Below are positions 379 to 61,675 of a stretch of 64,000 bases of DNA, one piece after another. This stretch comes from Bugulina stolonifera (taxonomy: Eukaryota > Bryozoa > Gymnolaemata > Cheilostomatida > Bugulidae): contig OW285190.1 of NCBI GenBank assembly GCA_935421135.1, positions 19,912,501-19,976,500 on the forward strand, read 5' to 3'. Below the pieces are notes generated by a model. The model searched no databases. It had not been told where the DNA came from and worked only from the letters and a program-made list of their open reading frames with translations. The translations under genes and the position numbers were made by a program. Each line of letters opens with the position of its first letter. Positions within the stretch are counted from its first letter, which is position 1.

Positions 379-1142
379 CCCCTGGTCCGTTCTACGTAGA
401 TATAGCCTACATTCCTCACCATGGTGACGGCAAGTATGTGGGCCCCGAGTACTTTAACCGTATCCATGCTAGGTAAGTACAGAGTTTAGTCTAATGACGT
501 CTGTATCATAGGCCAGAGGAAAGCATCCCTAGGTTTCTTGCACAAAAGTAAGAATTTGGCGTTGGGCTCAGTTCGGTGTGTTCGCGGCACTTGTGGCAGA
601 AGTGAGTTGAAAAGTTCCTGAGCAAGTTGATCTGTGTCTGAAAGCTGGTCATAAAGACACTAAATGCAGTCAATACCTTCTGTGATATTACAGTCAATAC
701 CTTCTGTGATATTACAGTCAATACCTTCTGTGTTGCAGTCAGTACATATTCAGTGGACTCGACTACAATGCAGACCCATTTGAAGCTCTCTTGGTTGGCA
801 AGAAGTCTTGGCCCTCGGACCCGGTCACATTGATACCCACCTACGACGTTGGTGCTGTAGACCGCTGGCAGGCTGAACACAGGCAACAAATCGGTGCGTA
901 CAACTTTGTCTGCTTGTCAGAACTTCCTGTTAGATATTGGCTGTGTGTATGTAGCACGTTGTGTATGTACTGTGAGTGTACATGTATGTAACACGTTGTG
1001 TATGTACTGTGAGTAAATAAATATATGTAACATATTGATACTTGTAGCTGAACTGAACATCAAGGTAGCCACCAGTGCCAACCACTGCACCATAACCGTC
1101 TCAGAGGATGAACAGTTCAACGCTGTCAGACTAGAGTTCTGA
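379..1142 (+). CDS. MAP1: MAP1-family microtubule-associated protein, last three coding exons (partial)
   Basis: Coding exons 379-472, 739-893 and 1048-1142, flanked by AG and GT and phase-consistent (2+90+2, 1+153+1, 2+93). The translation contains GPFYVDIAYIPHH, YIFSGLDYNADPFEALLVGK, VTLIPTYDVGAVDRW and ends NAVRLEF. This is the conserved C-terminal light-chain block of MAP1A/MAP1B/MAP1S and fly Futsch, which in that family binds microtubules or actin. The gene enters from the left: exon 379 begins mid-codon and needs one base from an earlier exon outside the window. Intron 2 ends in a small tandem array that copies the acceptor of exon 739. A 3'UTR intron (about 1155-1608, GTATGC to TTTCAG) is possible but unproven. 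The gene is convergent with the next one. Confidence 0.87.
667..745 (+). repeat. 24-bp tandem array carrying copies of an acceptor site
   Basis: Units starting at 667, 691 and 715 (24 bp, 24 bp, then 21 bp) each contain CAGTCAATACCTTCTGTG. They run directly into the real acceptor CAG at 736-738, where the exon begins TCAGTAC. Each unit therefore offers a copy of the acceptor and of the first exon bases of the MAP1-family exon at 739. Confidence 0.8.
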
Positions 1143-1776
1143 GATACTCACCAGGTATGCGGGTGTGATGTCATATCCTGTGATTACATCACTTCCTTGT
1201 GGCTGATATAATCAGCTGACTATACACATCCATTAATAACATACTCTATACATATTTATAGTCTACTTTATATTACATTCTCAGAAATAACTACATGTAC
1301 GTTGTGCTTAACTTTAAAAAAGAAAAACGCATTCATTTTGTTAATATTCTTGTTTTTACAATTGTATTATTTTCCTACGTTGGCTTTATCTTGTATAATA
1401 TGTTGTGGCCATTTATATTTCTTCACTGGTGCTTTACCATACTGGAAAGAATGTGTTTATATATATGTTGTTACTTACTTTCTCTACTACTTACAATGAC
1501 TGATCAAAGGTCCAACTAATATACACACATATAATATATTATATTATACAATATTCTGAACAATCATTGGTTCTATTCTAGGAGTTGTCTAATCTTTATT
1601 CTTTTCAGGAAGGAGCCCACAACTCTTCATCGTAATGTAGTGTAGTTAAATGTACTAGGAAGGGGGCATCGCCTCACTATCATACTGTAGGTTGTTTATA
1701 TTATACTGCTGTTACCCCTTCTGTCTACAACCCTGCTCATTACTCCGTACTTTACTATAGTAATTCTGTTGTTTCT

Positions 1777-7097: not shown

Positions 7098-9362
7098 CCT
7101 TACACCTGAGGTTTCTGTGCTAGTTATTTATCTCTATTGTCCAGCAAGCATCAACTACCTTCTGTCAACAGAAACCTGCTAATGAAGAGCAGATGAAATT
7201 GTAAAGATCAAAATATTTATACTTTGAGTATTCTTTGTTTACTTTATATTGTCAATTGAGTGAATGGATGCAATTGAGATTTTCAATCATTCAAAATTAG
7301 TGTTATTATCCACTTTGGTTCTGAGAATGTTAGAGTAGTAAATTAGAGAGCTATTCATAGGCACCCAGTGGAAGCTGCTACTAGTTCTAAGAACTTGGTC
7401 TACAATAGGACACCCCAGTAACATCTGCCCAGTGAAATCAATACTATAATATAGTCGATGCATACAGCAATAAAATGATGCCAATTCACACATTCCCTCC
7501 ACCTCCAATACAACCATAACAGGTGACAGGTAACAGATTACAGGTAACAGGTAACACATGAAACTAAGAAATATCTTTTTAACGGAAAAATAGTGTAAAT
7601 TTTCACTATTTCCACTATTTTCAACACATTGTGAGAAGCCTAGACCTAGACCTGGTGAAAATGTTTATATAATGATGTTGTCCAATAGTCATGGAGCCTG
7701 TAGATGTAGTGTGTGTTTTGATTAATAATACAAATGTACAGCAGTATAATGTAGTAATTACTGTCTAGGCTATCTATGTGTGTATGTATACAGTGTACAT
7801 GTAGTATTACACAATGTCTAACCTACCTACAATATATAGAATAAAGTAATACCTACTAATACCTACTACTTGCATGTACATATCACTTACCTACACGTAC
7901 TACTTGGGCTGCTGCTAAAGCTTTTCTGTAAATTCAGCTTTTAAAGAGTGTTGGATATAAATCAATATACATTGTTACATTAGAGCTTCCAGTGTGCATA
8001 TTATAGTGGAGCATGTCACGCACCTACCTACCCTGTCTAGCACCTACCTACCCTGTCTAGAAATAAAAGCCAATATACATGTAATATATACACTATGCAC
8101 TAATACATGTACCCGTCACTCAAGAATTGGCTACTAATAGCTGTACCTGTGTATAACAGCACTATTTAAATACAAGCCTCTAAATATTAGAAAGGTTTAA
8201 AGTTATATATGGATTACAGATATAGGTTAATAGTGTTATACAAGTAGATAATGTACCATTGCACCTGCATACAAATTAATAATCAATACAACATCTACTA
8301 TAAAGAGCTAAATAACATAACCTACTGTCTACTGCATTAACAAACTATGTTAACATCACTGTATATTATAATACATGTACATGTAAGTACATGTATTATG
8401 AGGTGACACTATGCTACCTTGATAACAAGGTTGGAATCCAGAGGAGCAGTTTATTGGTTATTACAGTTGACTATCTACGTAATGCACATGTACTTACCTA
8501 CATCGGTCTATATGATATACATGTACGTACCTACATCAGACTACATAATATACATGTACTTACCTACATCAGTCTACATAATATACATGTACTTACCTAC
8601 ATCAGTCTACATAATATACATGTACTTACCTACATTAGTCTACATAATGTACATGTACTTACCTACATAACATACATGTACTTACCTACATCAGTCTACA
8701 TAATGTACATGTACTTACCTACATAATATACATGTACTACATCAGTCTACATAATATATGTACTTACCTACATAATATACATGTACTTACCTACATCAGT
8801 CTACATAATATACATGTACTTACCTACATCAGTCTATATGATATACATGTACTTACCTACATTAGTCTACATAATATACATGTACTTACCTACATCAGTC
8901 TATATGATATACATGTACTTACCTACATCAATTTACATAATATACATGTACTTACCTACATTAGACTACATAATATACATGTACTTACCTACATCAGTCT
9001 ACATAATATACATGTACTTACCTACATCAGTCTATATGATATACATGTACTTACCTACATCAGTCTACATAATATACATGTACTTACCTACATCAGACTA
9101 CATAATATACATGTACTTACCTACATCAGTCTACATAATATACATGTACTTACCTACATCAGACTACATAATATACATGTACTTACCTACATCAGTCTAT
9201 ATGATATACATGCACACAAGCACTTATTTACTGGGTACTTACCTACCTATATGACCAGGATCATATACCCACTACCAAGATACCTACACTATATACATAT
9301 ACTTGTATATATAATATTATGTACAGTATATACAAGTGTATAAATACCAGTGTATATAATAT
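7098..9362. other. Upstream intergenic region with a minisatellite
   Basis: No coding exon seen. It is the 5' flank of the minus-strand gene at 2729-7097 and may hold untranslated exons. Its right third is the 33-bp array at 8470-9215. Confidence 0.6.
8470..9215. repeat. 33-bp minisatellite, about 22 copies
   Basis: The unit contains ATACATGTACTTACCTACAT followed by CAGTCTACATAAT. Most copies are 33 bp; a few near 8660-8760 are shortened. Read on the minus strand each unit contains ATGTAGGTAAGTACATG, a perfect consensus 5' splice site preceded by an AG. The long open frames through the array reflect the period of 11 codons and are not genes. Confidence 0.93.
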
Positions 9363-10025: not shown

Positions 10026-10026
10026 T

Positions 10027-13810: not shown

Positions 13811-13813
13811 TGT

Positions 13814-13820: not shown

Positions 13821-13823
13821 CTA

Positions 13824-22515: not shown

Positions 22516-25500
22516 TCACATCTCCATCATACGGGGCTCCCCAGCTCCTGCTGAGGCACCACCCGCACCCCCATCCTTCTGCACAGTGGCGTAGAGTGTT
22601 GAGAGGTCAAAGTTTGACTTGATCTGAGAGATGAAATCGGAGAGTTGTTGACTCTTCTCTGCCCCCGGTACCCCCTGCAACGCGATGACGGCGCGTAGAG
22701 CTGAACGCTTCAACTCATCCTGCTTCTCGAATTCTTGTTTAACTGAATTAGACTTGACTTTAGCATTGCACGTCTGTTTGAGGGGTTCTATGAGCCTCTC
22801 CACCCCTGTAATACAATACACAGTAGAGTACACTGTAATACAATATACAGTAGAGTACACTGTAATACACCACTGTAATACAATACACAGTAGAGTACAC
22901 TGTAGTACACCCCTGTGATACAATATACAGTAGAGTACACTGTAATACAATATACAGTAGATTACACTGTAATACACCCCTGTAATACAATACACAGTAG
23001 AGTACACTGTAATACAATATACAGTAGAGTACACTGTAATACACCCCTGTAATACAATACGCAGTAGAGTACACTGTAATACAATATACAGTAGAGTACA
23101 CTGTAATACACCACTGTAATACAATACACAGTAGAGTACACTGTAGTACACCCCTGTAATACAATATACAGTAGAGTACACTGTAATACACCCCTGTAAT
23201 ACAATACACAGTAGAGTACACTGTAATACACCCCTGTAATACAACATACAGTAGAGTACACTGTAATACACCCCTGTAATACAATACACAGTAGAGTACA
23301 CTGTAATACACCCCTGTAATACAACATACAGTAGAGTACATATCAATGACATGTTATAACACAAACTACACTACAAGTGACACTGTACAACCATAAAGTG
23401 TCGCTAATATAAAGATCACCCCGTTGTTGAGAGAACAAAGGACACAAGATCAAAGGAATGGTGGCAGAAAGTAAAGACATGGTAATACGTGTAAATAGCC
23501 TAAGTTCTTACGTTGGAGTACTGGTCCTGGCGAGAGGTTAGCTAGTCGTACCACCATAAGATAAGTAAGCATCTTCACATCATAATGATCTTTCAGTCCA
23601 TCTTCTACGTGACTGAGGAACTCAAAAATGTCTATACGATCGAGACACGAGTCCAAGAGAGTGTACATACACTCAAAGGCAGCCTACAATACATACATGT
23701 ACATACACTCAAAGGCAGCCTACAATACATACACGTACATACACTCAAAGGCAGCCTACAATACATACATGTACATACACTCAAAGGCAGTCTACAATAC
23801 ATACACGTACATACACTCAAAGGCAGCCTACAATACATACATGTACATACATTCAAAGGCAGCCTACAATACATACATGTACATACACTCAATGGCAGTC
23901 TACAATACATACATGTACATACACTCAAAGGCAGCCTACAATACATACATGTACATACATTCAAAGGCAGCCTACAATACATACATGTACACTATATTCA
24001 AAGGCAGGCTACAGCACGTAATTACTACATCACTACATATAAAGGTAGGCTAGAGCAAGATTAGAAAAGGCAGGGTATTACAGTACATACACACCTTTCT
24101 AAGGTCCAGACCATCATCTACAGTGTGCTTGAAGGGTCCCATCTCTACTTCTCTGATTAGGTTCTTTCTGACCTTGGTCTCATTGTAGAGGAGAGGAAGT
24201 ACATGGGCAAGGAGATCTCTCACAAGTGTTGGCTTGTTATGCGCCGCTGAGTTAAACATCACCTGAGACATCATTGTATTATATTAGTGGCATATCATTG
24301 TATCATATTACATAAAGCCAAGAATAAGTGAGTATAGTGGAAATATTTGAACTCAGGTAAACCACTCTCCCATTCACTAATTACTGACTGACCAACTGAT
24401 CAACTGACTGACTCACTGACTGACCCACTGACTCACTAACTGACTAACCAACTCACTGACTGACTGACTGACTGACTTACCAAGGCTACTCGTCGCACAT
24501 TCAGGTCACCATCTTTCAATGTGGACAGGAAGTCTCCTATCATCTTCCTCAGGAGATCATCTATTGGCTGAGGCTGATCTGTGATGGTGAACTTAACGGC
24601 CGTTACAACTGTAGCCCGAGTTAGAGCAGAATCTGAGCCTGCAGGTAGAGTATATCTCAGTAAATAAGACTATGCAGGTAGAGTACATCTCAGTAAATAA
24701 GACTATGCAGGCAGAGTATATCTCAGTAAATAAGACTATGCAGGCAGAGTATATCTCAGTAAATAAGACTATGCAGGTAGAATAAATCCCATGTAGACAG
24801 TGTATGCACTAAAGTACATAAAAGATTAATATACCGTCATGTAGACAAGAAGATGCACACTGACCAAGCTGGTCCTTGAGCTGACCAAGAAGGGGGTCAG
24901 GTTGGAGTAGGGTGAGTTTACCCAGACATTCTGCCACCACATTCCTGGTTCCCTCCTCTGGACACTCACAATGTGTCATCAACATACTCCAGATGTTGGT
25001 GATGTGAGGTCTGAATGTCTCTATCACATGTGAGTTGGACTCACAGGATATTATCTCCTACAACAAAGACAGCAATAGGCCCTATCTGATTGAATAGTGG
25101 CATGTAAGACAGCACCTGATTGGATAGCGGCATGTAAGACAGCATCTGATTGGATAGCGGCATGTAAGACAGCACCTGATTGGATAGCGGTATGTAACAT
25201 AGTTGCTGATTGGATGGGCCTACCTTAAGGGAGTGCAGTAGTAAATATTGTCTCTTAGTCTGACTGTCTATCTCTCTCAGGACAAATGGTAGATATTTAG
25301 TCAAGTTTCCTACAGCTACAGCACCGAGGGCATACGAAGCAGCAGTCTTTATGTCCTCATTGGATGAGGAGAATGCACTCAGGATCACAGCTAAAATTAG
25401 AGGTGGACAGAGATAGCGTGAATATGTCTGCGATTTAGACAGTGGCATTGTTTGTATTTGAGTACATTACTTAGCCTTAAGTACAGAGAATAGCCAGATA

Positions 25501-43217: not shown

Positions 43218-46200
43218 ATGCATAAATTTATTCAAAGGAAGGTATACGATACTTTGTCTTCTAAAAACGGGATCCTCACTGTTTTTGTTAGCATCGTCTT
43301 GTTACTCAGCTCAGCATTTTACTTTGGGGAGGTAAGTCGTGTGATGCCTGCTATTGAATAACTTTAATAAAAATTACAAGGTTTTATTCACCGTTGCTGA
43401 ATTAATTTATCAAGTCATAATTAAGACTCATACGATGCTGTGCTCATGTACTCATTCATAAAATATTTTCATGCCTAGAGTCGTAGTTTGTAATGTGTGA
43501 GGGCCAACCATGTATATATGATATCAAACCAGTCATTGCAACACGTATAGTTATCTTGTTGCAACTAGAGACCACTATCACATCGTTTAGTCCGAGCTAT
43601 TACGATTGTATCCAAACTGTGCTAGGTGCGTCAAGTACTGATTCTTCTTAGAAACCCTAACCTGGAGACTTCTAACCAGCCCTAAAATCTATAAGCAGAG
43701 AGATCTTACTGTGTTGCAAATTTAAAGTTAACAAATAAGTACAAGAAAATTATACTGAAGAGTTTGACTATGGATTCTGTAGAGTTTCTGAGGTTGGAGA
43801 ATTTAGTTGGCATCATCTACTACTCAGTAAATGTGTCAACCTGGTGTTGTTTTAGGCGATAGTAGAGTGGAGCAGTGAGAAGTATGCAGTTGTATTCAAT
43901 TCTTTTAGTGACAATCTCCTTGGCAAGTCATATAGAACTCGGTAAGTAATCCTGCAGATTCATTAAAGATGTCCCATCACTTGACAGAGAAATAGAAGTT
44001 ATAGAAGTAGTTTTAAATTGAAACTAACTGCTAGTAGGGCCTACCCCTGCTCCATTTGAACGTTTAGCCTAGGTTTAAACTGACTCCATTAATACGCTTA
44101 GCCTTAGTGTAAACTGAATTTCCGTCTAGAAAACCAAACTAAAGGCCGTTTCATGACCCAGCTATTTACACCTTCTGATAGCATGTAGTGTAATTTTATA
44201 TAATATTCTATTGTCTCACCATTGTTCTACATGTACTTATAATACGTTGTTTTATATAGCCTGTGTCTCCCCGTCCCCATCGATGTAGTCTATACATGGG
44301 TCAATGGCACCGACCCTCAACTTCTTTATGAACTGCGTAAAGCTAAAGCAGAGTTAGAGGAAGCAACTAAACCAAAGTATGTCATCTATAGCAATGTCTT
44401 CGTTTAGATACCTTTTATATACACATGGTGGATGGTGTTGGATTCTTTAAGTGAAACTTTTAATCCTCCTAATATTTCAACACTTTTATGATTTTCTTAG
44501 TTTCTGTCTAGTCTACATTTTTTTTCTATACTTGTGTTGTAGCTCAAGTGTACAGAATACTACAAATAAGTAAGTATTTATAACTACCATTTTGTACAGG
44601 CTACTCTCCTCTACAGTGTAGCTAGTAGTTCACACCATTTTAGAGTTGTTCCCTCCACATATTGTGTTTAGAAAGCATATTGTTACTAGTCCAGGGTTCA
44701 GTCGCTCTATTACAGACTTGGGTATGTTGTAGCTCACAGCAGAAGTGTTCATATGCTAACTGTGTGAAGATAGCCCAGGCAGCATTTCCTAAACTTCTAC
44801 CTGCGCATATAAAGAGGCAAAGTCTGGAGTTGAAATCTCCTCTATATAAATCTTTAGTCAGACTAGAACCAATACAATCCGACGACCTGAGGGCCAACTT
44901 TACTTTAGCCTCATTTCTTAGTCTAGAAGATGGTAAGTGTTGGGTGGGTGATACTGTTTATCATTTAGTTTCAATAACTATATCATTTCTGTCTGCTATT
45001 ACCATATTGTTCCCTTCATCATGTAATTTGCAGCCAATAAAGCGACCAACCACACTCTTTATATTGATGGAGAATCATACAAGCCACAGCAAGTGTATTA
45101 TGTAAGTATACACCTCTATAGTAGTTAGTGTGTAATGCTATATATTATATATACATACAGTGTAGTACTATATAGTATATAATTATATACAGTGTAGTAG
45201 TATATATTATATACATACAGTGTAGTAGTATATTATATGCATACAGTGTCGTAGTGTATACTACTTGTAGACGTCTGACGTTACAATACCAAAGTCTAAG
45301 CTACAGCAGTCTGTGGTCCTCGTCTCTGGGTTTAAAAAGGAGTACAGCAGTGATGAGGTGCTCAAGCTAATACCAGCTCATGTGTCGGCTCATGTATTTG
45401 ATGTGAGTGCCTTATCTGTAATATCTCAGCGTATCTCATGCTATCGCACCGTATCTCATACTATCTCACCGTATCTCATACTATCTCACCGTATCTCATA
45501 CTATCTCACCGTATCTCATACTATCTCACCGTATCTCATACTATCTCACCGTATCTCATACTATCTCACCGTGTCTCATACTATCTCACCGTGTCTCATA
45601 CTGTCTCACCGTATCTCATACTATCTCACCGTGTCTCATACTATCTCACCGTATCTCATACTATCTCACCGTATCTCATACTAATTCACCGTATCTCATA
45701 CTATCTCACCATATCTCATACTATCTCACCGTATCTCATACTATCTCACCGTATCTCATATTATCTCATTACAACCCAGCTGATTCTCCCTCTCTCTCTC
45801 TCTCATATTGCAGGTGGAGATGGTGGGTAAAGTAGGTATATTCACCACTTCAACTAGCGCTGAAGCGGATACTTTGCTCGGATTTGGGTTTAACTTTACT
45901 CTGGATGGAAGATATCTACAGTTCAACAGAGCCAACCTTGTCTACGATCTCACATTTGTAAGCAAATATACTTTACTTTACCTCCACTATTCTATTCTAT
46001 AATATACTACTATTCCATAATGGAGGTAGATAGATGTGTATATAATGTACTATTTTATAGTGGAAGTAGAGAGATATGTATATAATATACTATTCTAGAG
46101 TGGAGGTAGAGAGATGGATCTTACTGCCAGTAGATTTGAGGACAATGAAGAGTTGAGGTATAGCCTCAGGTCCCTAGAGCAGTATGCCCCTTGGGTACGG

Positions 46201-49200
46201 CACATCTACATTGTAACTAATGGTCAGATTCCCTACTGGTTGAATCTGGATAATCCGAGGGTGACTATCGTCACACACGAGGTCAGTATAGTATACAGCC
46301 TATAAGGAAGCAATTACATGTATGTATAGATATTATATATCAATAAGTCAATCTTCTCTTCTTTGTAGGAAATATTCCTCAACAAATCTCACCTGCCAAC
46401 ATTCAGTTCTCCAGCCATAGAGAGTCACCTTCACCGCATCCCGGGCCTCTCAGACAAGTTTCTTTACCTCAACGATGATGTCATGTTTGGGGCTCAGGTG
46501 TGGCCTGATGATTTCTACACTCACAGCAAGGGTCAAAAGGTCAGTGAATCAATCAACGAGTCAGTCAGGTGGTCACCTAGTCGGTGAGTCAGTCAGTCAA
46601 CTGGTCATCTAGTCGGTGAGTCCGTCAGCCAGCTGGTCATCTAGTCAGTGAGTCAGTCAGTCAGCTAGTCATCTAGTTAGTGAGTCAATCAGTCAGCTGG
46701 TCATCTAGTCAGTGAGTCAGTCAATGACTGATTATGTGTACTTAGTTATAGTCTAGGAAAGTTGGCTACTTACTAGTACTATTTACAAACATTACATAGT
46801 AGATTATACATGTGAATTTAGTTGTGAACGCTCTGCTCTATCTCCATGTAAACTGTATGTTATCTGGTACTTGTCAGGTCTACCTTTCCTGGAACATTCC
46901 AGACTGTGCACCAGGTTGTCCTGGATCATGGATCAAAGATGGCTACTGTGACAAAGCATGCAATGTCAGTGAATGTGGTTGGGATGCTGGTGACTGTGAT
47001 GGTTAGTAGTAGCATGATTACAGTGAGTGTAATCCATAATCTGGTTAGCTCAATCCATGATATCTCTGCTCTTATTGGCTTGATATCTAGTTGCAAGTAT
47101 GATATACTATCTACTATATCTCTGAACTCTCTTTGACCAGGTGGAGTTCCTGCTTTCAATTCTGGAAACGACTGGATGAACAACCGGTGGAATCAAGACA
47201 ATGAGATTGATATGGGTAAGTTGGCTTTACTTGCACTACGTACTTACACTCTGTGTACTTACACTCTGTGTACTTACACTCTGTGTACTTACATTCTGTG
47301 TACTTACATTCTGTACTTACGTTATATACTTACACTCTGTGTACTTACATTCTGTACTTACGTTATATACTTGCACTCTGTGTACTTACATTCTGTACTT
47401 ACGTTATATACTTACACTCTGTGTACTTACACTCTGTACTTACGTTATATACTTACACTCTGTGTACTTACACTCTGTGTACTTACACTGTACACTTACA
47501 CTCTGTGTACTTACATTCTGTACTTACGTTATATACTTACACTCTGTGTACTTACACTGTACACTTACACTCTGTGTACTTACACTGTATACTTAGACTA
47601 TACACTCACACCATGCACTTGCATTATATGCTTACACTCTGTACTATTTGTATGTTACAGTAATGTGTGATCCTGGATGTAGCAATGCATGGATAGCAGA
47701 TAAATACTGTGACCAGGTAAGTACGGCCTGCTACTGTATAAGAGTAAGTACTACCTGCTGCTGTATAAGAGTAAGTACTTGCATTTACATAACAATACCC
47801 AGGATCCTTCTTCCACTTGCTGGGTGAATTCTTATCCTTTGTCAACCCCTTCTCTGACAATGATTATACCGTATGGACTGTGCATCCTTTTTAACTAAGT
47901 ATCTACCATAACTGTAGGCATGCAATACTAAATATCTACCACAACTGTAGGCATGCAATACTAAGTATCTACCATAACTGTAGGCATGCAATACTAAGTA
48001 TCTACCATAACTGTAGGCATGCAATACTAAGTATCTACCATAACTGTAGGCATGCAATACTAAGTATCTACCATAACTGTAGGCATGCAATACTAAGTAT
48101 CTACCATAACTGTAGGCATGCAATACTAAGTATCTACCATAACTGTAGGCATGCAATACTAAGTATCTACCATAACTGTAGGCATGCAATACTAAGTATC
48201 TACCATAACTGTAGGCATGCAATACTAAGTATCTACCATAACTGTAGGCATGCAATACTAAGTATCTACCATAACTGTAGGCATGCAATACTAAGTATCT
48301 ACCATAACTGTAGGCATGCAATACTAAGTATCTACCATAACTGTAGGCATGCAATACTAAGTATCTACCATAACTGTAGGCATGCAATACTAAGTATCTA
48401 CCATAACTGTAGGCATGCAATACTAAGTCATGTGGATATGATGCTGGAGATTGTGGTGTTGGTAACTTCCATCAGCTCTACTCTATTACTATGTATAAAG
48501 ATGTGCAAAGTTACTCTATACCTACAGGTATGTGTTATAATATAACTTCTCATATATGACATAACTCCTCATACATAACGTAACTCCTCATGTATGACAT
48601 AACACCTCGTATATGACATAACTCCTCATATATAACATAGCTCCTCATATTGACAGGTATCACAGAAGCGTACCTGAACTTTAGCTCAGTTTCCACCCAC
48701 AAAGTAAGCTCCGCCTCTTACGAACAGAGACCCACGCTGAGAATAGCTGCTGTCAGTAACAAGTACAAAGTCCTCACTTTAGTCCTGCTTAACAAAACGA
48801 ACCAGACGACCTTCTCAGTAAACATGACCTTTGGTGAAGGTCATCACAAGCTAGAGGTAAGAGCAGTGTGCGTTCAAATCGGAATTTTTAATCACAATGG
48901 AAATTTTTATGGTCGAGTTGGTAAAATAGAGAAAGCAAGATTCGGCGAATCTCTATGGCAACAGGCAGGTGCTCCTGGGTGCTTTGGGAGTCCAAGTCGT
49001 AGCTTGCTTTAGTCACAGAAACGTGACTCATTTCACACTTGCAATGTATCTACCAAAGAATGTATCAATTTACTCATATATACATTTATATACTCTTTGT
49101 TGTAGCTATCATTCACTGTGACTACAAACAGCGGAGCTACAGCTCTTAGTAAACCTTCCAACTCTTCCGATGTATCCTTGCTACAGAAAGCTGTTCCAAT

Positions 49201-52200
49201 TGCTGAGGAACCTCCCTTTATATTCAGTGATATACCAGAACATATCAGGTATTCATTCACCTTCATAGTTGGTGCTACTTATTGTTATAGTAACTAATGT
49301 TAGACTGTGATCTAACAGAATCATGCTGCCCTGTCCAACCCATCTTGATATCAGTTGAGTGGCTGAGGATATCACTATTACATGTTGTATGTGTGTGTTT
49401 AGGGTATTACATGTTGTACTGCACATGTGGTAATAGTTTACTGTGTATCATACACATAGAGGACCCAAGGTTCTGGATAGACAAGTCGGCGTGATGCAGG
49501 TACAAAATATTCCATTGGATAGAGGTGTAGAGAATTTACCTGCAGATATTTTGAAGCAGCTCAATGACCTACAGACACAGTTAGATGCAGGTGAGGGAGA
49601 GAGAGAGAGAGAATCAGCGATTTCAAATGTACTGTATATTAAATACACGTGTACAACACATATGTACATGTATACATATGCACACCTATACACATGTACA
49701 CATGTAGCAGGGAACCAAACCACTGGTTTTATGTGAGTAACTATTACTGTGTGCTGTAAAATTCGACTAAATACCTACTGCATAGGTGCTTTAAACAAGG
49801 GACTAATACCACGTGTATTGTAGGGGAACTAACAGAGAAAGGGTTTAATATGAAGAGGTCAAAACTACTGCAGTTTACACCTGGAGGTGAGACGATCCGG
49901 AAGGAGAAGAATCTAGGACAGCGTAAGCAAAATGTGAATGTAGCTTATCAGCCAATAGGAGGACAGGCTAGTGTTAAGCAGCAGCTAATAGGAGGACAGG
50001 CGAGTGTTCAGCAGCAGCCAATAGAAGGACAGGCTAACATTCAGCAGCAGCCAAAAGGACTGGCTGTTCAGCAACAGCCAATAGGAGAACAGGTCAATGT
50101 TCAGAAGCCAATGGGAGGACAGGCTGATATTCAGCAGCCAATAGGACAGGTTAACGTTCAGCAGCCCATCGGAGGACAGGCCAAGGTTCAGAAACCAATG
50201 GGAGGACAGGCTGATATCCAACAGCCAATAGGACAGGTTGACGTTCAGCAGCCAGTAGGAGGACAGGCTAACGTTCAGCAACAGCCAATAGGAGGACAAG
50301 CTAATGTTCAGCAGCAGCAGCAGCCAATGGGAGGACAGGGTAACGCTCAGCAGCAGCCAATAGGAGGACAGGCTAATGTTCAGCAGCAGCCAATAGGAGG
50401 ACAGGCTAACGTTCAGCAACAGCCAATAGGAGGACAAGCTAATGTTCAGCAGCAGCAGCAGCCAATGGGAGGACAGGGTAACGCTCAGCAGCAGCCAATA
50501 GGAGGACAGGCTAATGTTCAGCAGCAGCCAATAGGAGGACAGGCTAACGTTCAGCAGCAACAGCCAATAGGAGGACAGGCCAATGTTCAGAAGCCAATGG
50601 GAGAACAGGCCAATGTTCAGAAGCAAATGGGAAAACAGGCTAATGTTCAGCAGCAGCCAATAGTAGGACAAGCGAACGTTCAGCAGCAGCAGCCAATAGT
50701 AGGACAAGCGAACGTTCAGCAGCCAATAGGAGGACAAGCCAATGTTCAGCAGCAGTCAATAGGAGGACAGGCTAACGTTCAGCAGCCAATGGGAGGAAAG
50801 GTTAATTACACTGCTGGTGTACATGTGGGTAGACAACTCCAACAACTGGTGATACAAGATCAAGAGTTAGGATTCCTCCCCTGGGAAAACTCTGCTGAAT
50901 TCAAACATCTTATCAAGGTATACAAATAGAATGTAGATAGAGAAAGTAAGGCATGGCTAATAATATGTGCAAAAAGTATTGTTGAAATCGACACATGCTC
51001 CACTATTAGTGTAAAACGTAAACTGATGCAGTATGTAGATGTGTAATGCAGTATGTAAATGTGTAATACAGTATGTAGATGTGTAATACAGTATGTAGAT
51101 GTGTAATACAGTATGTAGATGTGTAATACAGTATGTAGATGTGTAATGCAGTATGTAGATGTGTAATGCAGTATGTAGATGTGTAATACAGTATGTAGAT
51201 GTGTAATACAGTATGTAGATGTGTAATACAGTATGTAGATGTGTAATACAGTATGTAGATGTGTAATACAGTATGTAGATGTGTAATACAGTATGTAGAT
51301 GTGTAATACAGTATGTAGATGTGTAATACAGTATGTAGATGTGTAATACAGTATGTAGATGTGTAATACAGTATGTAGATGTGTAATACAGTATGTAGAT
51401 GTATATTAGTACTACATGGCTACCCAATCACTGGTTGATATAATACATGTTTAATGTGTATACAGAAGAGAGATGTTGGGGAGAGAAAAGCAGAGTATGT
51501 CGCTGTGGGACCCCGTAACACCCGGCACCTGATGGACACGTTTGCTCAGTCTCTCCACCATGTCAATGATCTCTACAACAAGATGTTTGGAGTGAAATCT
51601 CGTAAAGTACCAGGTCACATCTCACATATGATAGACAGGGAGGTTATGGAAGATCTGTACAACACGTGAGTGTACCGCAATAACAGTAGTGCTATTGTGT
51701 ACTGCAATAACAGTAGTGCTATTGTGTACCGTAGTAATAATGACAGCTGACTAAAATGTATCACACATTTGGATTTGTCTTCCCTTTACTGTGATGTGGT
51801 ACAGCCATATTCTTTTTACACTGCGTTGTACTTGTTGGTATAGCAACAAGTAAAAAGGCTCGGATTCGCTAGAGGCCACAAAACAAACCCTTATAATAGT
51901 ATCCTGCCAATAATCAAAACTGATTTCTGATCAACTATATAATTGGAATCGTTGTATCCAATATTAACCAACCACAACAGCGCTGGCTGCTAGGGATTCA
52001 AAAGGCAAATATGGGTGACTTTGCATGGGCTACATCAGCCTATGTAAGGTCACTGAGCTTTACAAAGTCAGGGGCCATTGTAAAACAAATGAAAGGTGAA
52101 GACAACTCCAGGAGCTAACATTGAGTGTATATATATTATTGGAAAATACATGAAGGTCTACAGCAGCAGTAGCAGCAGCAGCAGTAGTAGTAGTAGCAGT

Positions 52201-52233
52201 AGTAGTAGTAGTAGCAGTAGTAGTAGTAATAGC

Positions 52234-52265
<32 letters not shown>

Positions 52266-55200
52266 TGGTAGTGATAGTAGCAGCAGTAGTGGCAGCAGCA
52301 GTGGCAGCAGCAGTAGTGGCAGCAGTAGTAGCAGTATGACGTTAGGTTATGTGTAATGCATAGTGGGGCTGAATGGGTTTGCAGCAACAATATTCTAGAC
52401 ACATGTGACAAGGGAACATAACTCCCTATAATCAGCATACTAATAATACACAGTTTTAGTAGTATCACAGTACAATAGTGACTGGTAGAACTAAAATGAT
52501 TTGGGGTATTAGTTGTGGACACAAGTTAAGTGACTTGCACCTTCTCTATAATGTATACCAGCATATATTCACATGTGTGTATAGAATCCACAGCATGTGT
52601 ACATATGACATCATACTCTACACTTAGTATACATTGAGTACTAATGTATATTTGTACATTTGATGTACTGATATAAAGATCAGACTGTTTTATAAAACCA
52701 AACCTGTATTAGTGAGGATAGGTTAATATACATGTATTATTAATTATGTTATAGCAAGTGCTACATGTGGAGGCAAACAGTGTTACTACTTGCATTCTTC
52801 CATTTAATTTTGTAATTAATATATTTGTTTGCTTGTGTAGTTATTAATACAGTTGTAGGATGTAGGAACAGTGTTATACTTAGATCATGATATCACCAGT
52901 TTATTAATTGTATCAAACATGTCCTATAATTATGTGGCCCACACTCACTAGTTTAGTGTGTATATGTATATGTATAATATACATGTATATTGGACTACAA
53001 TAGGAGAACGGAAGTAATAATTATTGTACAGATACATATTATAATTACTCTACAGTATTACTATTATATACTTAGATATTACACAGTGTATAATTATACC
53101 AGAGGACATGAAGTAGCTTGCCCTTGGATAGAATGGGGTCCAATATCAACGGATGGATTTATTGTTCAAATACAACCATAAACATTACATTTGACACCTA
53201 AACTTGGCTATAATAAGGTGGTGGGATCATTATTAGCTGTAATAGGCTATACATATTGTATATAATACATGTAGCAGGGAGGTGCATGTAGGCGGCTGCT
53301 CTAGTGAATTAGAGGTGTACCAGTTATATGGAGACGTGGGGAGTTGCTCCCTCATATCTCTTCCTTCCTGTTGGGGCAGAAGAAGTGCGAGTTCAACTTG
53401 ATTGAAACTAGTGAGATAACTCAGTAGAGATTATTACTATTACAATGCAACTAATATATGACCTTACGTAATTGTATGGGTGGAGTTTGTAACAACAGCT
53501 AAGAGTGGTATCTGCACAGCTCTAGGTCATCTAGCCTTCTGTAAGTGTGAGCTAGGTCAGCTGTACATGGGGACACACACCAGACCAAACAATTTATATA
53601 CTGCTATTATATAAATCTGTCAGATAAAGCTATGTTTAATTTAAAATAACAATAAGAGTAAACAGACAGGTTGAATGCTATACAGTGTGTTATTACAGTG
53701 TGTTATACAGTGTTACAGAATACAAGACAATAGCTATTAATACCACTTATAGTTATTCTCTGCTCTTGATAAATATTGTATCAGTTATATCTATCACAGC
53801 CTGAGCTGGGAATTAATAACTTTATGAATGGAACAGTTCCGCTTGTTTGCTGCTCAGCTAGGCTAATGTTTACTTATAATTGTGTTTGTTGGATATTGAA
53901 TGGAAAATGGGGCTCTGGGGTCCTGAGGCCCATTTCAAACTTGGCATCAGATCAATTGTAGCTGTTTGTATTAATTACTCTGTTAATTAGATAATTGTAG
54001 TCTGGCTACCTCTATAATTGTACTTGTGGGGCTGCAGCTTGTGATGAACTCATAGTATATAGTATAATGACTTGTGTATCTGATAGACTGTGTAGCTGTA
54101 TCAGCTACTAAATGTACATGTATACATATACATGTAATTATAATATTTATATTAGTAAACACTACATTGTGATACCTGACTACACATATGCATTGTAGAC
54201 TACTCCTAGATACAGATTTATCATCTAAAACCATTCAGTCTACATTTAATAGATACATGTACAATTATTATCTCTACTAGAGAAGTTTATTTAGGAGTTA
54301 TCTTATCATTGTCCATATTGCTATTATTGTTGTAGATACAGTTCCACTACTCATGTGTATTATATCACTAACTGTATAATATAATAATATGTGTATGACC
54401 TTATATAATATGTATATAACAGGTTCAAAGAGCAGTGGGAGATAACTTCAAGTCATAAGATAAGAAGTGGAAGTGATATGCAGTTTGCCTTCTCATACTT
54501 CTACTTTCTCATGGATAGCAAGAGAAACAACACGGCGTATGACTTTATAGATGATATGGATATAGACAACTCTGGGTACATACCTACACTTATATATACT
54601 CTAAGTTACTTACACGTACATACCTACACTTGTATTAGGGGTTTAGTCTTATTGACGTACTATAATGCGTTGTGCCATGGGTAGAGGGAGGCGGTACTTG
54701 AAACAGGAAGTAGAGTGTCTGCTTTCTTTGGTCTCTAGTCTACACCGTGGTACTACTTGCTGATAGTACGTGTACCAGGTACATGTATGTAATATATAGT
54801 ATGCCATCAGGGACTAATTAGTGTACCAAATAGATATAAAAATGTACATATTTTATTCATAACACATGTACTGTTAAAAATAGACCATTGATGTTTATTA
54901 TATAATGTGTCCTGTACATGAGATGTTATTGTGTTCTAGGACATGTGTACACTTTGTAGTACATATAGATATGTACATGTATGTGCTGTTATTGCACACT
55001 TATTCACATTATAGCACATGTATACAAGTTATAGCATGTTATGTATACAAGGTATAACATATTATGTATACAAGGTATAGCATGTTATGTATACAAGGTA
55101 TAACATATCATAATACTGTTTATAGAGTGCTATCTGACAGAGAACTCAGGACTATGGCCACCAGAATATTTGATTCCCCTCTGGATCTGCAGGTGACTAT

Positions 55201-58200
55201 ATTCTATATCTACATATATATTATATACTAACTATATTCTATATCTACATATATATTATATACTAACTATATTCTATATCTACATATATATTATATACTA
55301 ACTATATTCTATATCTACATATATATTATATACTAACTATATTCTATATCTACATGTATATTATATACTAACTATATTCTATATCTACATGTATATTATA
55401 TACTAACTATATTCTATATCAACATATATATTATATGCTAACTATATTCTATATCTATATTACACCTCAGAGCCTAACGTCACTGGAACAGCACATCATA
55501 AACTGTTCCAAACATCTTCCTGTGGGTAAACAGACTGCACCGACCTCCACCTACATTAGCCTACCCCCTGAGAGGTACTACGACCAGAATATGGTAAGAG
55601 ATCACTATACACTATACTATATACAATAATAATATAATACGGAAACTAATGGTTGTAAACAGATATAGTGACTGCACAGGTTTAGGTTCATTTCACTTTG
55701 ATGATGACATGGTAGCGTAATACATTGACTCAAATAGAATGGGGGAGGGGAGGGGGCAGGCTCTACCCGTATATGTGTACACATTTACTTCACACAGTCT
55801 ACTACACACTTACATGTACATACATTGATTCATGTATGCCGTCATATTTTTACTCCTTATTGATGTAATTATTCAATGATCACGGCTAACAGAGTGTGAA
55901 ATGTCAATTTATTAAAATAAATTATTATCAATTTAATATTCATAAACTTGAGCACTTATAAAACCTCATGTCATAGTATAATATTACATAATAACAACAA
56001 CTACGTATATTTATAAATCTTGACAGTAAATTTTTTATTACACAATAGAGTCACTTGTACTAAGATACATGTCATACATGTAGGTCGGCTCTAGGGCTAC
56101 TTATTTTTGTTGACCATCCTGTTGTCCTAGTTAGGATCTTGGGCTAGATGGCTGTTAGGACCTTAGCCTAAGGTCCTAACAGCCATCTTAGGTTAGGTAG
56201 TTCTGTAGAACTTGAGCTATGTAGCCTACTGCCCTCCCTCTCCCCAAACCAAATTTATTATGTCAAGTGATGACAATGTATACAATCATAGTACTACCTT
56301 GTGGAACATCAAAGTGCAAAGAGGAATAACTCCCAAGTCCAAGTATTGCCCGGTTTATCAAATACTGGGCATATTACTGGCATTTCTCCAACTATATTAT
56401 GCCCTTATTACTACCAACACTAATATTACGATTTTCGTTCTATTAATATAATTTATGAATTATCAAAATTCCAGAATATGGTCCATTGCTTCCTCTACTC
56501 CACACAATGTTGACTAGATAAACAACTCAATTACTTTCTCTCTCTAATCCTCCTCTATTCACAGTTACAGTTATGTAGTGACATACTCTCTCTTATGTCA
56601 ACCAATTATGTAACAGTAGACAGGGCTGGTTATTGTTTACCTATAGGATTTACTGATTGTAGAAGAATTTTATTATTGTATAGATATGAGGATTAACTAT
56701 GTAATTAATAATAATATTGTTACTATAGCAGTTTGTACACTGATAACACTGCAGTTACACCTTGCAATGGAATCCCTGCTTGCGTCAGATGCAAGTGTTT
56801 TTAGGGGAGTTTCTCATTTATTTTATCATCAAAAGAGAATAATAATAATATCCTTTGCCTGACGAACAGTAAAACATCTCTATATATTAGACTCTTATCA
56901 GTAAATTAGATGGAATGGGGCGTACAGTGTACATCCATGGTGTACATACACCTATAATACATGTAGATAACACAAGTATATTATACTGTACATACATTGT
57001 ATATACTGTACTGTACATGGTAATGTTACATATTTATAGTATCATCTGAACATATCCTAGACTTACAAACAATCCAGTTTAATATTATCTTTATATGACT
57101 TGTGTGCTACTGCTACTACTAATATATCGTACTACTACTAATATATCGTACTAATACTAATATATCGTACTACTACTAGTATATCGTACTACTACTAATA
57201 TATCGTACTGCTACTAATATATCGTACTACTACTAGTATATCATACTACTACTAATATATCGTACTGCTACTAATATATCGTACTACTACTAATATATCG
57301 TACTACTACTAATATATCATACTACTACTAATATATCGTACTGCTACTAATATATCGTACTACTACTAATATATCGTACTACTACTAATATATCGTACTA
57401 CTACTAATATATCGTACTGCTACTAATATATCATACTACTACTAATATATCGTACTACTACTAGTATATCGTACTACTACTAATATATCGTACTACTACT
57501 AATATATCGTACTACTACTAATATATCGTACTACTACTAGTATATCGTACTACTACTAATATATTGTACTGCTACTAATATATCGTACTACTACTAATAT
57601 ACCGTACTACTACTAATATATCATACTACTACTAATATATCGTACTACTACTAATATATCGTACTGCTACTAATATATCGTACTACTACTAATATATCAT
57701 ACTACTACTAATATATCGTACTACTACTAATATATCGTACTACTACTAATATATCGTACTACTACTAATATATCGTACTACTACTAATATATCGTACTAC
57801 TATTAATATATCGTACTACTACTAATATATCGTACTACTACTAATATATCGTACTACTACTAATATATCATACTACTAACTAATATATCATACTACTAAC
57901 TAATATATCGTACTGCTACTAATATATCGTACTACTACTAATATGTCGTACTACTACTACTAATGTATCGTACTACTACTAATATATCGTACTACTAACT
58001 AATATATCGTACTACTAACTAATATATCGTACTACTACTAATATATCATACTACTAACTAATATATCGTGCTACTACTAATATATCGTACTACTACTAAT
58101 ATATCGTACTACTACTAATATATCGTACTACTACTAATATATAAGTACTGTGAGTAAGTTACAGTATATACAAATACACATGCATATCTGATATCACGGT

Positions 58201-61200
58201 TCCTGTAAGTACAATCTCTAATGATACACTGATTCCCAGTTGAATACCGACTACAGGATAGTCAGTACCTCATAAGTGATTCTGTGAATGTATTTAAATT
58301 TTGACAGAGATAACTTGCTTAACGCTCTACATGTAGCCTCAGAGGGGTAGTTGCACATCTGCAGCCCTGCTCAAGGATCTGGAGCTAACAGAAAATGGAG
58401 AGGAAATAAATAAATATTAGTCATAAATAAATAAATATTAGTCATAAGCATTTAATCATTTTACTGTTTCCTCGAGGCTAGGCAAGTTTGAGCACATACA
58501 TTATACATATTACAGGCTACATGTACACATAATATGTATATTATACAAACATATTAGGTAACATTTCTCAGTCTAGTCTGGAAGGGTGTCTGTTTGTCAG
58601 AGCCAACCTTTTGAACCAGCACCAGGAGTGTGTGTACTTTCCCCTCTATTACTCCTTGATTTCATCAACACAAGTAATGATCTAATGCAGGCAATATACA
58701 TACACTGTACATGTATATCCGTGATATCACAGTGTTACCACATATACAGTTCTCAACACATACAATATAGTGTAATACGTTGTACTATTATAACATACAT
58801 ACTTCACATTATTTCCTTCTTTTATTTATTAATTATTTACAGTATAAACAGTGACCTTGTATATACTCTTGTTGTTTGCACCGAAAAACCATGTCCGCTT
58901 GGTGGCTCCTTTTATTTTATCTTTTCTGACAGATATTTAGTCATTTTATTAATAATCATTGAATGCATGCAGTTCAGCAGTGAATTCTATTACATCCATA
59001 GAAGTAACTTTATGGTTTAGTCTCTGTGAATGAACTTATAATAAGTGGGCATAACTCCTACAGCTATTCAGTCTCTTTCTAAACATTCACTTTTGTTGTA
59101 TACGTGGTTGGTTACCATGACTACAGTATTCTGTCTGTCTGTTTGTAGCCTCAGGTTACTGTGCCTTTGTTGAAGTACTGTGGGCCGGTGCTGACTCTGA
59201 TTAAGAACAAGGTGGCACCTAAGCCGAAATACAGGTAAGTATTGATTGCAGTTGTGAATCTAGTGTACTGTATGTTGTGTTTCAGTCATACTTAGTAAGT
59301 CATACTTACTGTGTGTGTATTTATGTTACACTCCATTATCGTGTACTGATGTTGTCCACTAGTCTACATGTAACTCTTATACATTTGAAACTCCCAATGA
59401 TGTCCAATACTACATGTTATACTACTACCAATGATGTCCAATACTACATGTTACATTCTATAGATACGAAGTGATGGGAGACGACGATATCAATTTTAAG
59501 ATGATCCGTACAAATCTGTCTTCAGTCGTCGGTCAGCTGGATGACCTGAGGAGGCACCCAAAGTATGTCAATATTTGAAGTTTTAATTCTCCATTTTCCT
59601 TGTTGTTACTAAGTTCTCTGTAGGCTTGTGTGAATCATACTGACATGTAAATGTTATGTATTTGTAGAAAGTTCATGTGTCTAAATGATAACATTGACCA
59701 TAGTAACTCGGAGGCCATTCAGGTGAGCTACTTCTTTAATAAATATATATCGGCTATGCCAGCGTATCACTAGTTTATCACCAGTATATCACCAGTATAT
59801 CACCAGTATATCACCAGTATATCACCAGTATATCACCAGTATATCACAAGTATATCACCAGTATATCACCAGTATATCACCAGTGTATCACCGGTATATC
59901 ACCAGTATATCACAAGTATATCACCAGTATGTCACCGGTGTATCACCAGTATATCGCCGGTATATCACCGGTATATCACCGGTCTATCACCGGTGTATCA
60001 CCGGTGTATCACCGATATATCATCGGTATATCATCAGTATATCACTGGTATATCACCGGTCTATCACCGGTCTATCACCGGTGTATCACCGATATATCAT
60101 CGGTATATCATCAGTATATCATGGTATATCACCAGTATATCATATAACCCCAAACCCCATGTCTCCACGTATATCACGTATATCATATATATGGTACAAT
60201 GTATCTCATGTATATATAGTACAAGGTATCCATGTATATCATATATATATAGTACAATGTATCCATGCATCTCATGTATATATAGTACAATGTTCACATG
60301 TATATCATATATATATAGTACAATGTATCCATGTATATCATATATATATAGTACAATGTATCTCATGTATATCATGTATATGTAGTACAGTGTTCCCATG
60401 TATATCATGTATATATAGTACAAGGTATCCATGTATATCATGAATATATAGTACAATGTATCCATGTATATCATGAATATATAGTACCATATTCCCATGT
60501 ATATCATGTATATGTAGTACAGTGTTCCCATGTATATCATATATATATAGTACCATGTTCCCATGTATATCATATATATATAGTACAATGTATCCATGTA
60601 TATCATGTATATATAGTACAAGGTATCCATGTATATCATGAATATATAGTACAATGTATCCATGTATATCATGAATATATAGTACAATCTATCCATGTAT
60701 ATCATATATATGTAGTACAATGTATACATGTATATCATATATCTCATGTATATCTCAGGTAAAAGCTCTGCTAGCCGATTTCTATGAAAGCATGTTTCCA
60801 ATCAGATCACAGTTTGAACTGCCTCCTGACTATAGAAATCGTTTCCTTCACATCTACGAGCTGAGAGAGTGGTGAGTCTGTACTGCAATACTAATGTATT
60901 GTACTGTAATACGGTATTATACTGCAATACTAATGTATTATACTGTAATATGGTATTATACGGTATTATACTGTAATACTAATTTATTATACTGTAATAC
61001 GGTATTATACTGTAATACTAATGTATTATACTGTAATATGGTATTGTACTGTAATATGGTATTATACTGTAATACGGTATTATACTGTAATATGGTATTA
61101 TACTGTAATGCGGTATTATACTGTAATATGGTATTATACTGCATTGCAGTATTACTGTATCATAATATAATACTAAATTACTGTATTGCCGTATTATGCC

Positions 61201-61675
61201 GTAATATTGCTGTATTATTTCTTATAATGATAATGCAATGCTACTGTGTTATAGCATTCTAACGTCATGTGATGTTACCGTATTACACATGTGTTATGTA
61301 CATATATGCAGGAAGAAGACGAGGGATTACATGAAATTGTTTGTGGAAGTTCTCTTAGTTCTACTGGTTCTATATACAGTATACAGTTACTATGAGGATC
61401 AGGTGTGTATATTACTATATTACATGGTATATTACATACAGTTACTATGAGGATCAGGTGTGTATATTACTATATTACATGATATATTACTATATTACAT
61501 GATATATTATATACAGTTCCTATGAGGATCATGTGTGTATATTACTATATTACATGATATATTACAATATTACATAATATATCACATTGCTGTATATTTT
61601 CTTATTGTTTTATATTAACAGATTAAACTAAGTCGTGAGAAGAGAAGAAGACCAGCTGGTGGTGAGAGTGTGTGA
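43218..61675 (+). CDS. GNPTAB: GNPTAB, GlcNAc-1-phosphotransferase alpha/beta precursor (complete, 28 exons, 1406 aa)
   Basis: Exons: 43218-43331, 43856-43941, 44260-44376, 44543-44569, 44733-44932, 45034-45101, 45271-45402, 45814-45957, 46099-46281, 46369-46539, 46878-47001, 47141-47215, 47661-47716, 48413-48527, 48657-48856, 49106-49248, 49460-49590, 49824-50917, 51466-51665, 54423-54575, 55126-55192, 55471-55593, 59149-59234, 59464-59562, 59668-59722, 60759-60871, 61312-61402, 61622-61675 (4221 nt, in frame). This Golgi enzyme starts the mannose-6-phosphate tag on lysosomal hydrolases. Seen: signal anchor at 19-37, Stealth block [12 protein letters not shown] (74-85), [14 protein letters not shown] and [11 protein letters not shown], two Notch/LNR modules (about 423-456 and 483-515), an expanded Gln/Gly repeat region (about 737-1020), the site-1-protease-like junction RHLM|D at 1083/1084, EF-hand loop D1173-E1184, CLNDNIDH, and a second membrane segment at about 1368-1386. 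The human protein is 1256 aa; the repeat region explains the excess. Confidence 0.97.
45425..45770. repeat. 20-bp array CTATCTCACCGTATCTCATA in GNPTAB intron 7
   Basis: About 17 copies, starting about 20 bases after the exon 7 donor. Confidence 0.93.
46015..46125 (+). repeat. Three diverged copies of the GNPTAB exon 9 acceptor region
   Basis: TACTATTCTAGAGTGGAGGT (authentic, AG at 46097-46098) follows two older relatives, TATTCCATAATGGAGGTAGA and TATTTTATAGTGGAAGTAGA, spaced about 42 bp apart. Confidence 0.7.
46540..46730 (+). repeat. Donor-like array in GNPTAB intron 10
   Basis: Four to five diverged units of GTCAGTGAGTCAGTCAGTC plus AGCTGGTCATCTA. The first bases match the real exon 10 donor GTCAGTGAATCA at 46540. 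Confidence 0.8.
47250..47640. repeat. GTACTTACACTCTGT array in GNPTAB intron 12
   Basis: About 25 copies with period near 15 bp and TTATATACTTAC variants. Open frames in three phases are by-products. Confidence 0.9.
47893..48429 (+). repeat. 33-bp minisatellite copying the acceptor and start of GNPTAB exon 14
   Basis: The unit TCTACCATAACTGTAG plus GCATGCAATACTAAGTA is repeated at exact 33-bp spacing from 47918 to the authentic exon start at 48413, giving 15 extra copies (15 x 33 = 495). Copies are nearly identical. Confidence 0.97.
48540..48650. repeat. 20-bp array in GNPTAB intron 14
   Basis: About six copies of AACTCCTCATATATGACAT, ending in the acceptor CCTCATATTGACAG. Confidence 0.8.
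49940..50800 (+). repeat. Coding minisatellite inside GNPTAB exon 18
   Basis: A 30-bp unit (CAGCAGCCAATAGGAGGACA plus GGCTAACGTT) with 24-36 bp variants encodes about 27 copies of [10 protein letters not shown]. All length changes are multiples of three, so the frame stays open for the whole exon. Confidence 0.95.
51025..51402. repeat. 20-bp array GTAATACAGTATGTAGATGT in GNPTAB intron 18
   Basis: About 19 nearly perfect copies. Confidence 0.95.
52160..52335. repeat. AGC/AGT trinucleotide tract in GNPTAB intron 19
   Basis: About 58 triplets of AGC, AGT or GGT/GGC. It is intronic, so the poly-Ser frame is not coding. Confidence 0.95.
55195..55465. repeat. 35-bp array filling GNPTAB intron 21
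   Basis: Seven to eight copies of CTATATTCTATATCTACATA plus TATATTATATACTAA. It begins three bases after the exon 21 donor and ends at the exon 22 acceptor. Confidence 0.93.
56146..56188. other. 43-bp near-perfect palindrome
   Basis: Two 21-base arms (left AGATGGCTGTTAGGACCTTA then G) pair exactly around one central C at 56167, inside GNPTAB intron 22. Confidence 0.9.
57115..58143. repeat. 19-bp minisatellite, about 54 copies, GNPTAB intron 22
   Basis: The unit TACTACTACTAATATATCG has single-base variants (CTGCTACT, ATATATCA, ACTAGTATA) that recur in blocks. Confidence 0.95.
59765..60140. repeat. 11-bp array AGTATATCACC in GNPTAB intron 25
   Basis: About 33 copies with CCGGT, CACAAG and CATCGG variants. 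Confidence 0.92.
60165..60757. repeat. About 33-bp array in GNPTAB intron 25
   Basis: About 18 copies of ATCCATGTATATCATGTATA plus TATAGTACAATGT. It abuts the exon 26 acceptor, which begins with the same CATGTATATC. Confidence 0.92.
60880..61145. repeat. 17-18-bp array in GNPTAB intron 26
   Basis: About 14 copies of GGTATTATACTGTAATAC or its ATATGG form. Confidence 0.9.
61383..61538 (+). repeat. Tandem copies of the GNPTAB exon 27 end and donor
   Basis: ACAGTTACTATGAGGATCAG with GTGTGT (authentic donor after 61402) recurs at 61438-61457 with the donor intact, and at 61513-61532 with the junction changed to AT|GT. Confidence 0.93.

Follow-up and report, generated by a model that had tools for sequence, protein, structure and literature searches.

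Minisatellite-like tandem repeats that cross exon-intron boundaries are known in lancelets as mirages and have been described in the globin, Adh3, troponin C and PGBD5 genes (PMC3087553, PMC3902484). The mirage globin genes are BflGb6 and BflGb9 of amphioxus, and mirages of presenilin and retinol dehydrogenase are known from the titles of two references cited in the same paper (PMC3087553). Splicing is reported as undisturbed for several lancelet mirages, with no aberrant mRNA (PMC3087553, PMC3902484), and the globin paper proposes a model of intron gain (PMC3087553). In this study, we examined tandem arrays at splice junctions in a bryozoan, Bugulina stolonifera, in a window of 64,000 nucleotides (the whole stretch of DNA analysed, C4:19912501-19976500 of a 27-contig genome totalling 234,951,659 bases) and in genes elsewhere in the genome. 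The window holds the 3' end of a MAP1-like gene, TPMT, CAND1 on the minus strand, HIBCH and GNPTAB; the name MAP1 is putative.

The bryozoan arrays are mirage-type minisatellites, a class already named in lancelets and apparently new for the phylum. As in amphioxus, each unit combines the end of an intron with neighbouring exon bases; the units lie at acceptors or donors, and many keep the AG or GT. The unit length of amphioxus mirages is 150-160 bp in the globins and 10-72 bp in Adh3, and that of the spanning bryozoan arrays is 23-67 bp. Units of this type crossed a predicted exon-intron boundary in 12 of 72 arrays in 213 introns, and additionally at the GNPTAB donor at 61402; both acceptors and donors were represented. 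The bryozoan case differs in its host, in that 17 genes were measured, and in that one intron (CAND1 intron 6) is almost wholly array. Splicing and length variation have been studied in the amphioxus mirages, whereas the bryozoan arrays are known from genome sequence alone. The first-pass annotation of the window had regarded such arrays as an undescribed class, which does not hold, since the amphioxus mirages (globin, Adh3 and other loci) already form the same class. Our literature search found no account of such arrays in bryozoans among the matches listed or in passages of one bryozoan genome paper, a weak negative because most subscription journals lay outside it.

A second group of related cases concerns intron gain by tandem duplication, which the first-pass annotation had rightly called a published idea and which is reported for fruit flies and potato (PMC2891723, PMC4974935, PMC3443670). 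The bryozoan arrays resemble these cases and ATP2A1 in that exon sequence duplicated in tandem turns into intron. Unlike the classical one-time duplication of an AGGT-bearing exon segment, they are multi-copy with one junction per unit, and most of them adjoin seemingly ordinary introns. In one single-gene case the repeat units reportedly carry functional or potential donor sites, and the copies are said to serve as alternative donors. In human segmental duplications, variable internal tandem repeats at exon-intron boundaries have been tied to new introns (PMC2812944); in contrast to the bryozoan arrays, these lie in recent paralogues and half of them are coding.

Junction-spanning arrays inside and outside the window

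Exons were placed with a self-written spliced protein-to-DNA aligner, using human CAND1 and GNPTAB and then those of the bryozoan Watersipora subatra as references; all exon borders are predictions. In the Watersipora-based models 956 of 1227 aligned residues were identical for CAND1 and 778 of 1181 for GNPTAB. Both references placed the junctions identically at the spanning CAND1 arrays, GNPTAB exon 14 and the donor at 61402. The human-based GNPTAB model differed in two respects: it inserted a false exon of 6 bp ahead of the exon at 46099, and it put the far end of the intron after 61402 elsewhere. Our exon numbers match those of the first-pass annotation throughout CAND1 and up to exon 17 of GNPTAB; the later GNPTAB numbers match once four false introns in the coding repeat are merged (exons 18-22 of the Watersipora-based model). 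The gene models and the clear spanning arrays of the window are as follows.

22519..34949, minus strand: CAND1 coding exons, 22 in the Watersipora-based model, by spliced alignment
30608..31377, minus strand: CAND1, 20.4 copies of 37 bp across the exon 7 acceptor (junction 30642/30641), 34 exon bp, from Tandem Repeats Finder and the exon model
23662..24013, minus strand: CAND1, 9.8 copies of 36 bp across the exon 21 acceptor (exon start 23683), 22 exon bp
31548..31613, minus strand: CAND1, 2.1 copies of 31 bp across the exon 6 acceptor (exon start 31562), 15 exon bp
43218..61661, plus strand: GNPTAB coding exons, by spliced alignment, with the coding tandem repeat at about 49824-50917 left unresolved
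47894..48428, plus strand: GNPTAB, 16.2 copies of 33 bp across the exon 14 acceptor (start 48413), 16 exon bp, copies 99% alike
46008..46116, plus strand: GNPTAB, 2.7 copies of 40 bp across the exon 9 acceptor (start 46099), 18 exon bp
61381..61490, plus strand: GNPTAB, 2.0 copies of 55 bp across the donor of the exon ending at 61402, 22 exon bp, with related 75-bp copies after it

CAND1 intron 6 is the most striking single case, an intron made of its own exon. It is 738 bp long, and the array row omits just its first 2 bp. It begins with GT and a partial copy (AGTACTTGACTTATGTAG), followed by 19 units that nearly repeat bases 1-34 of exon 7 and end in TAG; some copies carry substitutions, lack one base or have an additional TACATG. 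CAND1 intron 6 was the only intron whose body was found to derive from the adjoining exon.

The first-pass annotation had listed twelve junctions in MAP1, CAND1 and GNPTAB as lying inside tandem units. Six of them are clear, falling within Tandem Repeats Finder rows with 15-34 exon bp: the CAND1 acceptors of exons 6, 7 and 21, the GNPTAB acceptors of exons 9 and 14, and the GNPTAB donor at 61402 (exon 27 in that annotation, exon 31 in the Watersipora-based model). Two are marginal. The MAP1 acceptor at 738 (exon 739 in that annotation) is crossed by the copies, with a diverged exon part (the 24-bp row itself ends at 732, and one earlier run extended it by hand to 750), and at the CAND1 exon 22 acceptor at most 5 exon bp are included. 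The remaining four fell away. In CAND1, the arrays beside the exon 19 acceptor and the exon 4 donor extend to the junction or stop just inside it. The array at the GNPTAB exon 10 donor begins 19 bp inside, and the CAND1 exon 5 donor has no array, only one diverged additional copy, judged by eye, 62 bp downstream. The arrays at the marginal and lost junctions are listed here.

667..732, plus strand: MAP1-like gene, 2.8 copies of 24 bp just before the acceptor at 738, with AG and a diverged counterpart of the first exon bases
22806..23150, minus strand: CAND1, 67- and 40-bp units up to the exon 22 acceptor (exon start 22805), at most 5 exon bp
24640..24788, minus strand: CAND1, 4.5 copies of 33 bp, stopping 1 bp before the exon 19 acceptor (exon start 24638), no clear exon bases
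32954..33419, minus strand: CAND1, 13-bp array from the exon 4 donor (exon end 33418), TAGGTACGTG-like donors in the units, at most 2 exon bases
46559..46723, plus strand: GNPTAB, 32-bp array starting 19 bp inside the exon 10 donor (end 46539), donor-like motifs, zero exon bases

Junction-spanning arrays recur in unrelated genes on other scaffolds. Fourteen genes outside the window, MCM2-7 and eight CCT genes, were chosen by Pfam family regardless of repeats and modelled with human references. Two MCM-type loci without a good reference (L019-L020, L023-L024) and four other Cpn60-family places were left out; the IBN_N family gave 4 matches, which were unused, and the flanks L025-L026 and loci L001-L008 entered the repeat-coverage count only. 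Of the 37 arrays in these 14 genes, 7 reach across a junction and include 8 or more exon bp. They lie in 6 of the 160 introns: MCM3 intron 7 (both ends) and intron 9, MCM5 intron 5, MCM6 intron 9, CCT7 intron 7 and CCT2 intron 1. By the same rule no spanning array was seen in CCT1, CCT3-6, CCT8, MCM2, MCM4, MCM7 or the window gene HIBCH; an array in MCM2 intron 17 includes 4 exon bp and falls below the rule. The recurrence implied by the genome-wide process that the first-pass annotation had proposed was borne out on other scaffolds.

Arrays are unevenly distributed across genes, with many in MCM2 and CCT2 and zero rows in CCT1, CCT5 and CCT6. Tandem repeats cover 21.1% of the window versus 10.5% of 34 other loci, which total 258,692 bp. 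MCM2 intron 5 (L013-L014) is 5350 bp long and about 95% tandem repeat, nearly all of it one 23-bp array of about 220 copies. CCT2 (L034) carries 65 copies of 42 bp in intron 5 and 78 copies of 25 bp in intron 6, whereas arrays are few or absent in the remaining CCT genes.

Frequency of spanning compared with random placement

The frequency of spanning was assessed in 213 introns kept from the 17 genes, after 17 introns with poorly supported exons or in the GNPTAB coding-repeat region had been excluded. They contain 72 arrays of period at least 12, within 64 introns. Under the random-birth null, every placement of a duplicated unit (length p) is equally likely as long as it touches the intron and spares the mRNA, and the chance of spanning (at least 8 exon and 6 intron bases) is 2(p-13)/(L0-p+1+2(p-1)), where L0 is the intron length with arrays collapsed. 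The observed frequency equals that of the null: 12 spanning arrays versus 11.1 expected in all 17 genes (P 0.44 for at least that many). The window genes gave 5 versus 6.4 and the 14 outside genes 7 versus 4.7 (P 0.16). Using present intron lengths, the expectation was 10.5 for all genes and 4.3 for the 14 genes (P 0.11), and an earlier run with human references gave 11 observed versus 9.9 expected. The count omits the GNPTAB donor at 61402, where the rule prefers an overlapping 75-bp row, and MAP1, which had no model in the count; with both added it becomes 14 versus slightly above 11.1. The junction targeting and the excess of overlap over chance that the first-pass annotation had expected were therefore not found in this small sample.

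Of the 12 spanning arrays, 8 lie at acceptors and 4 at donors, and the exon length included varies from 9 to 34 bp with no single fixed breakpoint. Unit length shows no 3-bp periodicity (remainders of 0, 1 and 2 in 4, 5 and 3 arrays), which suggests that extra copies are normally removed as intron. The array-free introns have a median of 219 bp. Spanning is common mainly because the units are a large fraction of such short introns. A process aimed at junctions is not needed; many minisatellites and short introns suffice.

We assign a probability of roughly 0.7 to the reading that these are mirage-type minisatellites produced by near-random tandem duplication in genes with short introns. The genome would keep producing short tandem duplications, with units of about 20-70 bp, at more or less random genic sites, and with short introns the duplicated unit would often straddle a splice junction by accident. 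Such a duplication could survive since one outer copy of the junction would still join the exons, the extra copies becoming intron. Slippage or unequal exchange, as a presumed mutational mechanism, would then expand and homogenise the copies. Arrays in coding sequence would be tolerated only in frame and intronic ones would be unconstrained, with the decoy sites as by-products of array growth. The coding 33-bp array of GNPTAB counts for in-frame survival within coding sequence: at 49949-50786 lies a coding minisatellite of about 26 units of 33 bp (11 codons), in a spacer preceding the protein's conserved second half.

Several observations weigh against near-random placement. When at least 12 exon bp are demanded, the counts lean upward, to 11 versus 8.5 in all genes (P 0.21) and 6 versus 3.5 in the 14 genes (P 0.11; on present lengths 6 versus 3.1, P 0.076). 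Array edges lying 0-8 bp inside introns exceed the null, with 11 versus 3.1 at donors (P 0.0001) and 7 versus 3.1 at acceptors (P 0.03). Most of the donor excess is carried by the window genes (donors 8 versus 1.6, acceptors 3 versus 1.6, P 0.22), which were selected for looking striking; in the 14 outside genes the figures are 3 versus 1.5 at donors (P 0.18) and 4 versus 1.5 at acceptors (P 0.055). We considered that the flush arrays might be decayed spanning arrays. This was ruled out, as the similarity to the next copy beyond flush edges (0.34-0.41) is at the background level seen at edges far from junctions (0.41-0.43). The clustering of array edges just inside junctions is a lead, with no explanation so far. 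The sample is small, and a mild bias toward junctions may still be compatible with the counts.

These edge clusters and the upward lean outside the window would be expected if a mutational process duplicated splice junctions preferentially, for example by template switching where AG or GT gives microhomology, or through breaks linked to splicing or R-loops. We consider such a process improbable, since the spanning counts are never significantly above the random-birth null at any cut-off tried, the edge excess lacks independent significance outside the window, and the varying amount of exon included gives no common breakpoint. A directed junction-duplicating process was tried against two nulls and was not needed.

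Decoy splice sites and the origin of introns

The arrays present rows of largely intact decoy splice sites, as the first-pass annotation had described. Many but not all copies in spanning arrays keep the AG or GT. Splice dinucleotides in the decoys are off consensus in 2 of 166 letters, versus 107 of 3108 at other unit positions, but this retention is not significant, as random adjacent pairs average 6.1 mismatches (P 0.17); for acceptor decoys alone there are 0 of 134 mismatches versus 3.9 expected (P 0.076). Selection for or against the decoy dinucleotides was thus rejected as non-significant, and homogenisation alone could retain them.

On a crude matrix most arrays have decoys that rate like authentic sites: in CAND1 intron 6 the 19 decoys score 0.6-1.9 versus 1.2 for the real site, and in GNPTAB intron 13 the 15 decoys score 1.5-1.8 versus 1.8. 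Use of the nearest counted decoy is predicted to shift the frame in 5 of 11 arrays, to bring an in-frame stop in 4 and to leave the frame open in 2 (MCM5 and MCM6). That decoy lies less than one unit away at the MCM3 intron 7 donor (21 nt) and in MCM6 intron 9 (9 nt). The 12th spanning array, in GNPTAB intron 8 at the exon 9 acceptor, has zero decoys under the decoy rule. In MCM5 intron 5 (L015-L016) the modelled real donor is GC, and four array copies have GT.

If the decoys regulated expression through unproductive splicing, with frameshift or stop followed by decay, ratings like those of real sites and the predicted frame shifts and stops would be in keeping with it. We regard such a role as very unlikely: the dinucleotide retention is what homogenisation would also give, and lancelet mirages are reported to leave splicing undisturbed. 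Least probable of all is an artefact of assembly or gene models. Assemblers can mis-size long similar arrays and every exon border here is predicted, but unit sequences vary within arrays, the same exon bases adjoin the arrays, and the junctions on which the two references agree include those of the spanning CAND1 arrays, GNPTAB exon 14 and the donor at 61402. In addition, the published assembly (tzBugStol2.1) was built with PacBio reads. An alternate haplotype has been published as well (GCA_935421085.1).

It is also possible that exon-derived arrays create or replace introns, tandem duplication of exon sequence, whether or not it took in the end of an older intron, making the splice signals and amplification filling the intron body. 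The composition of CAND1 intron 6 is what such a process would leave. Eight arrays, in CAND1, GNPTAB, MCM2, MCM6 and CCT2, leave 20-86 bp of intron after collapse (human-reference models, 20 bp being the floor of the calculation) versus 87 bp for the shortest array-free intron. The reports from fruit flies and potato, and the proposal for lancelet mirages, point the same way. We hold this account tentatively, with the odds against it, for three reasons. The TAG of each unit in CAND1 intron 6 is absent from the exon copy and resembles the last 3 bases of an older intron; loss of the old intron body by deletion would look identical; and units that stop short of a junction reach no more than 9 when scored against the exons beside them, a value at the 99th percentile of background, with none seen to be exon-derived. 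In the background control CAND1 intron 6 itself scores 31, because exon 7 is also the upstream flank of intron 7. Introns below 87 bp after collapse were either born with their arrays or had their original body replaced by them, and CAND1 intron 6 is a strong candidate for intron growth or origin from exon copies. A wider idea, which we consider speculative and doubtful, is that minisatellites crossing junctions continually supply new introns. As they grew they would engulf the old intron until only tandem copies of the neighbouring exon were left, as in CAND1 intron 6. Thousands of introns could then be at some stage of this course, each with rows of intact splice sites, and the spliceosome would always have to pick the outermost one.

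Other features of the window and implications

The CAND1 protein is closest to that of W. subatra, with 77% identity among the 120 of 2658 matches listed. The animal's own CAND1 was not found among these 120 listed full-length relatives (maximum 77%) or 66 fragments (maximum 64%), and a search for B. stolonifera transcripts via a 210-residue CAND1 fragment found none. A GC donor is modelled at 34844 in CAND1 intron 1. The TPMT gene model was left out of the analysis. A Pfam search of the MAP1-like and other 5' open reading frames gave zero matches. The region 9320-14490 holds a 1163-codon open frame (10319-13807) between direct repeats, seen as identical open reading frames at 9368-9580 and 13829-14041 and at 9471-9827 and 13932-14288. 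The frame has a gag-like look, as in retroelements; the Pfam search gave it no match.

These arrays extend mirages beyond the cephalochordates into a distant phylum. In conserved genes picked irrespective of repeats, about 1 in 27 introns (6 of 160) has a spanning array, and annotation and read mapping in such genomes need caution. With as many as 19 near-identical acceptors ahead of the correct one, the arrays offer natural experiments on splice-site choice. If CAND1 intron 6 was built from exon copies, it would be a readable case of a long-debated route of intron origin.

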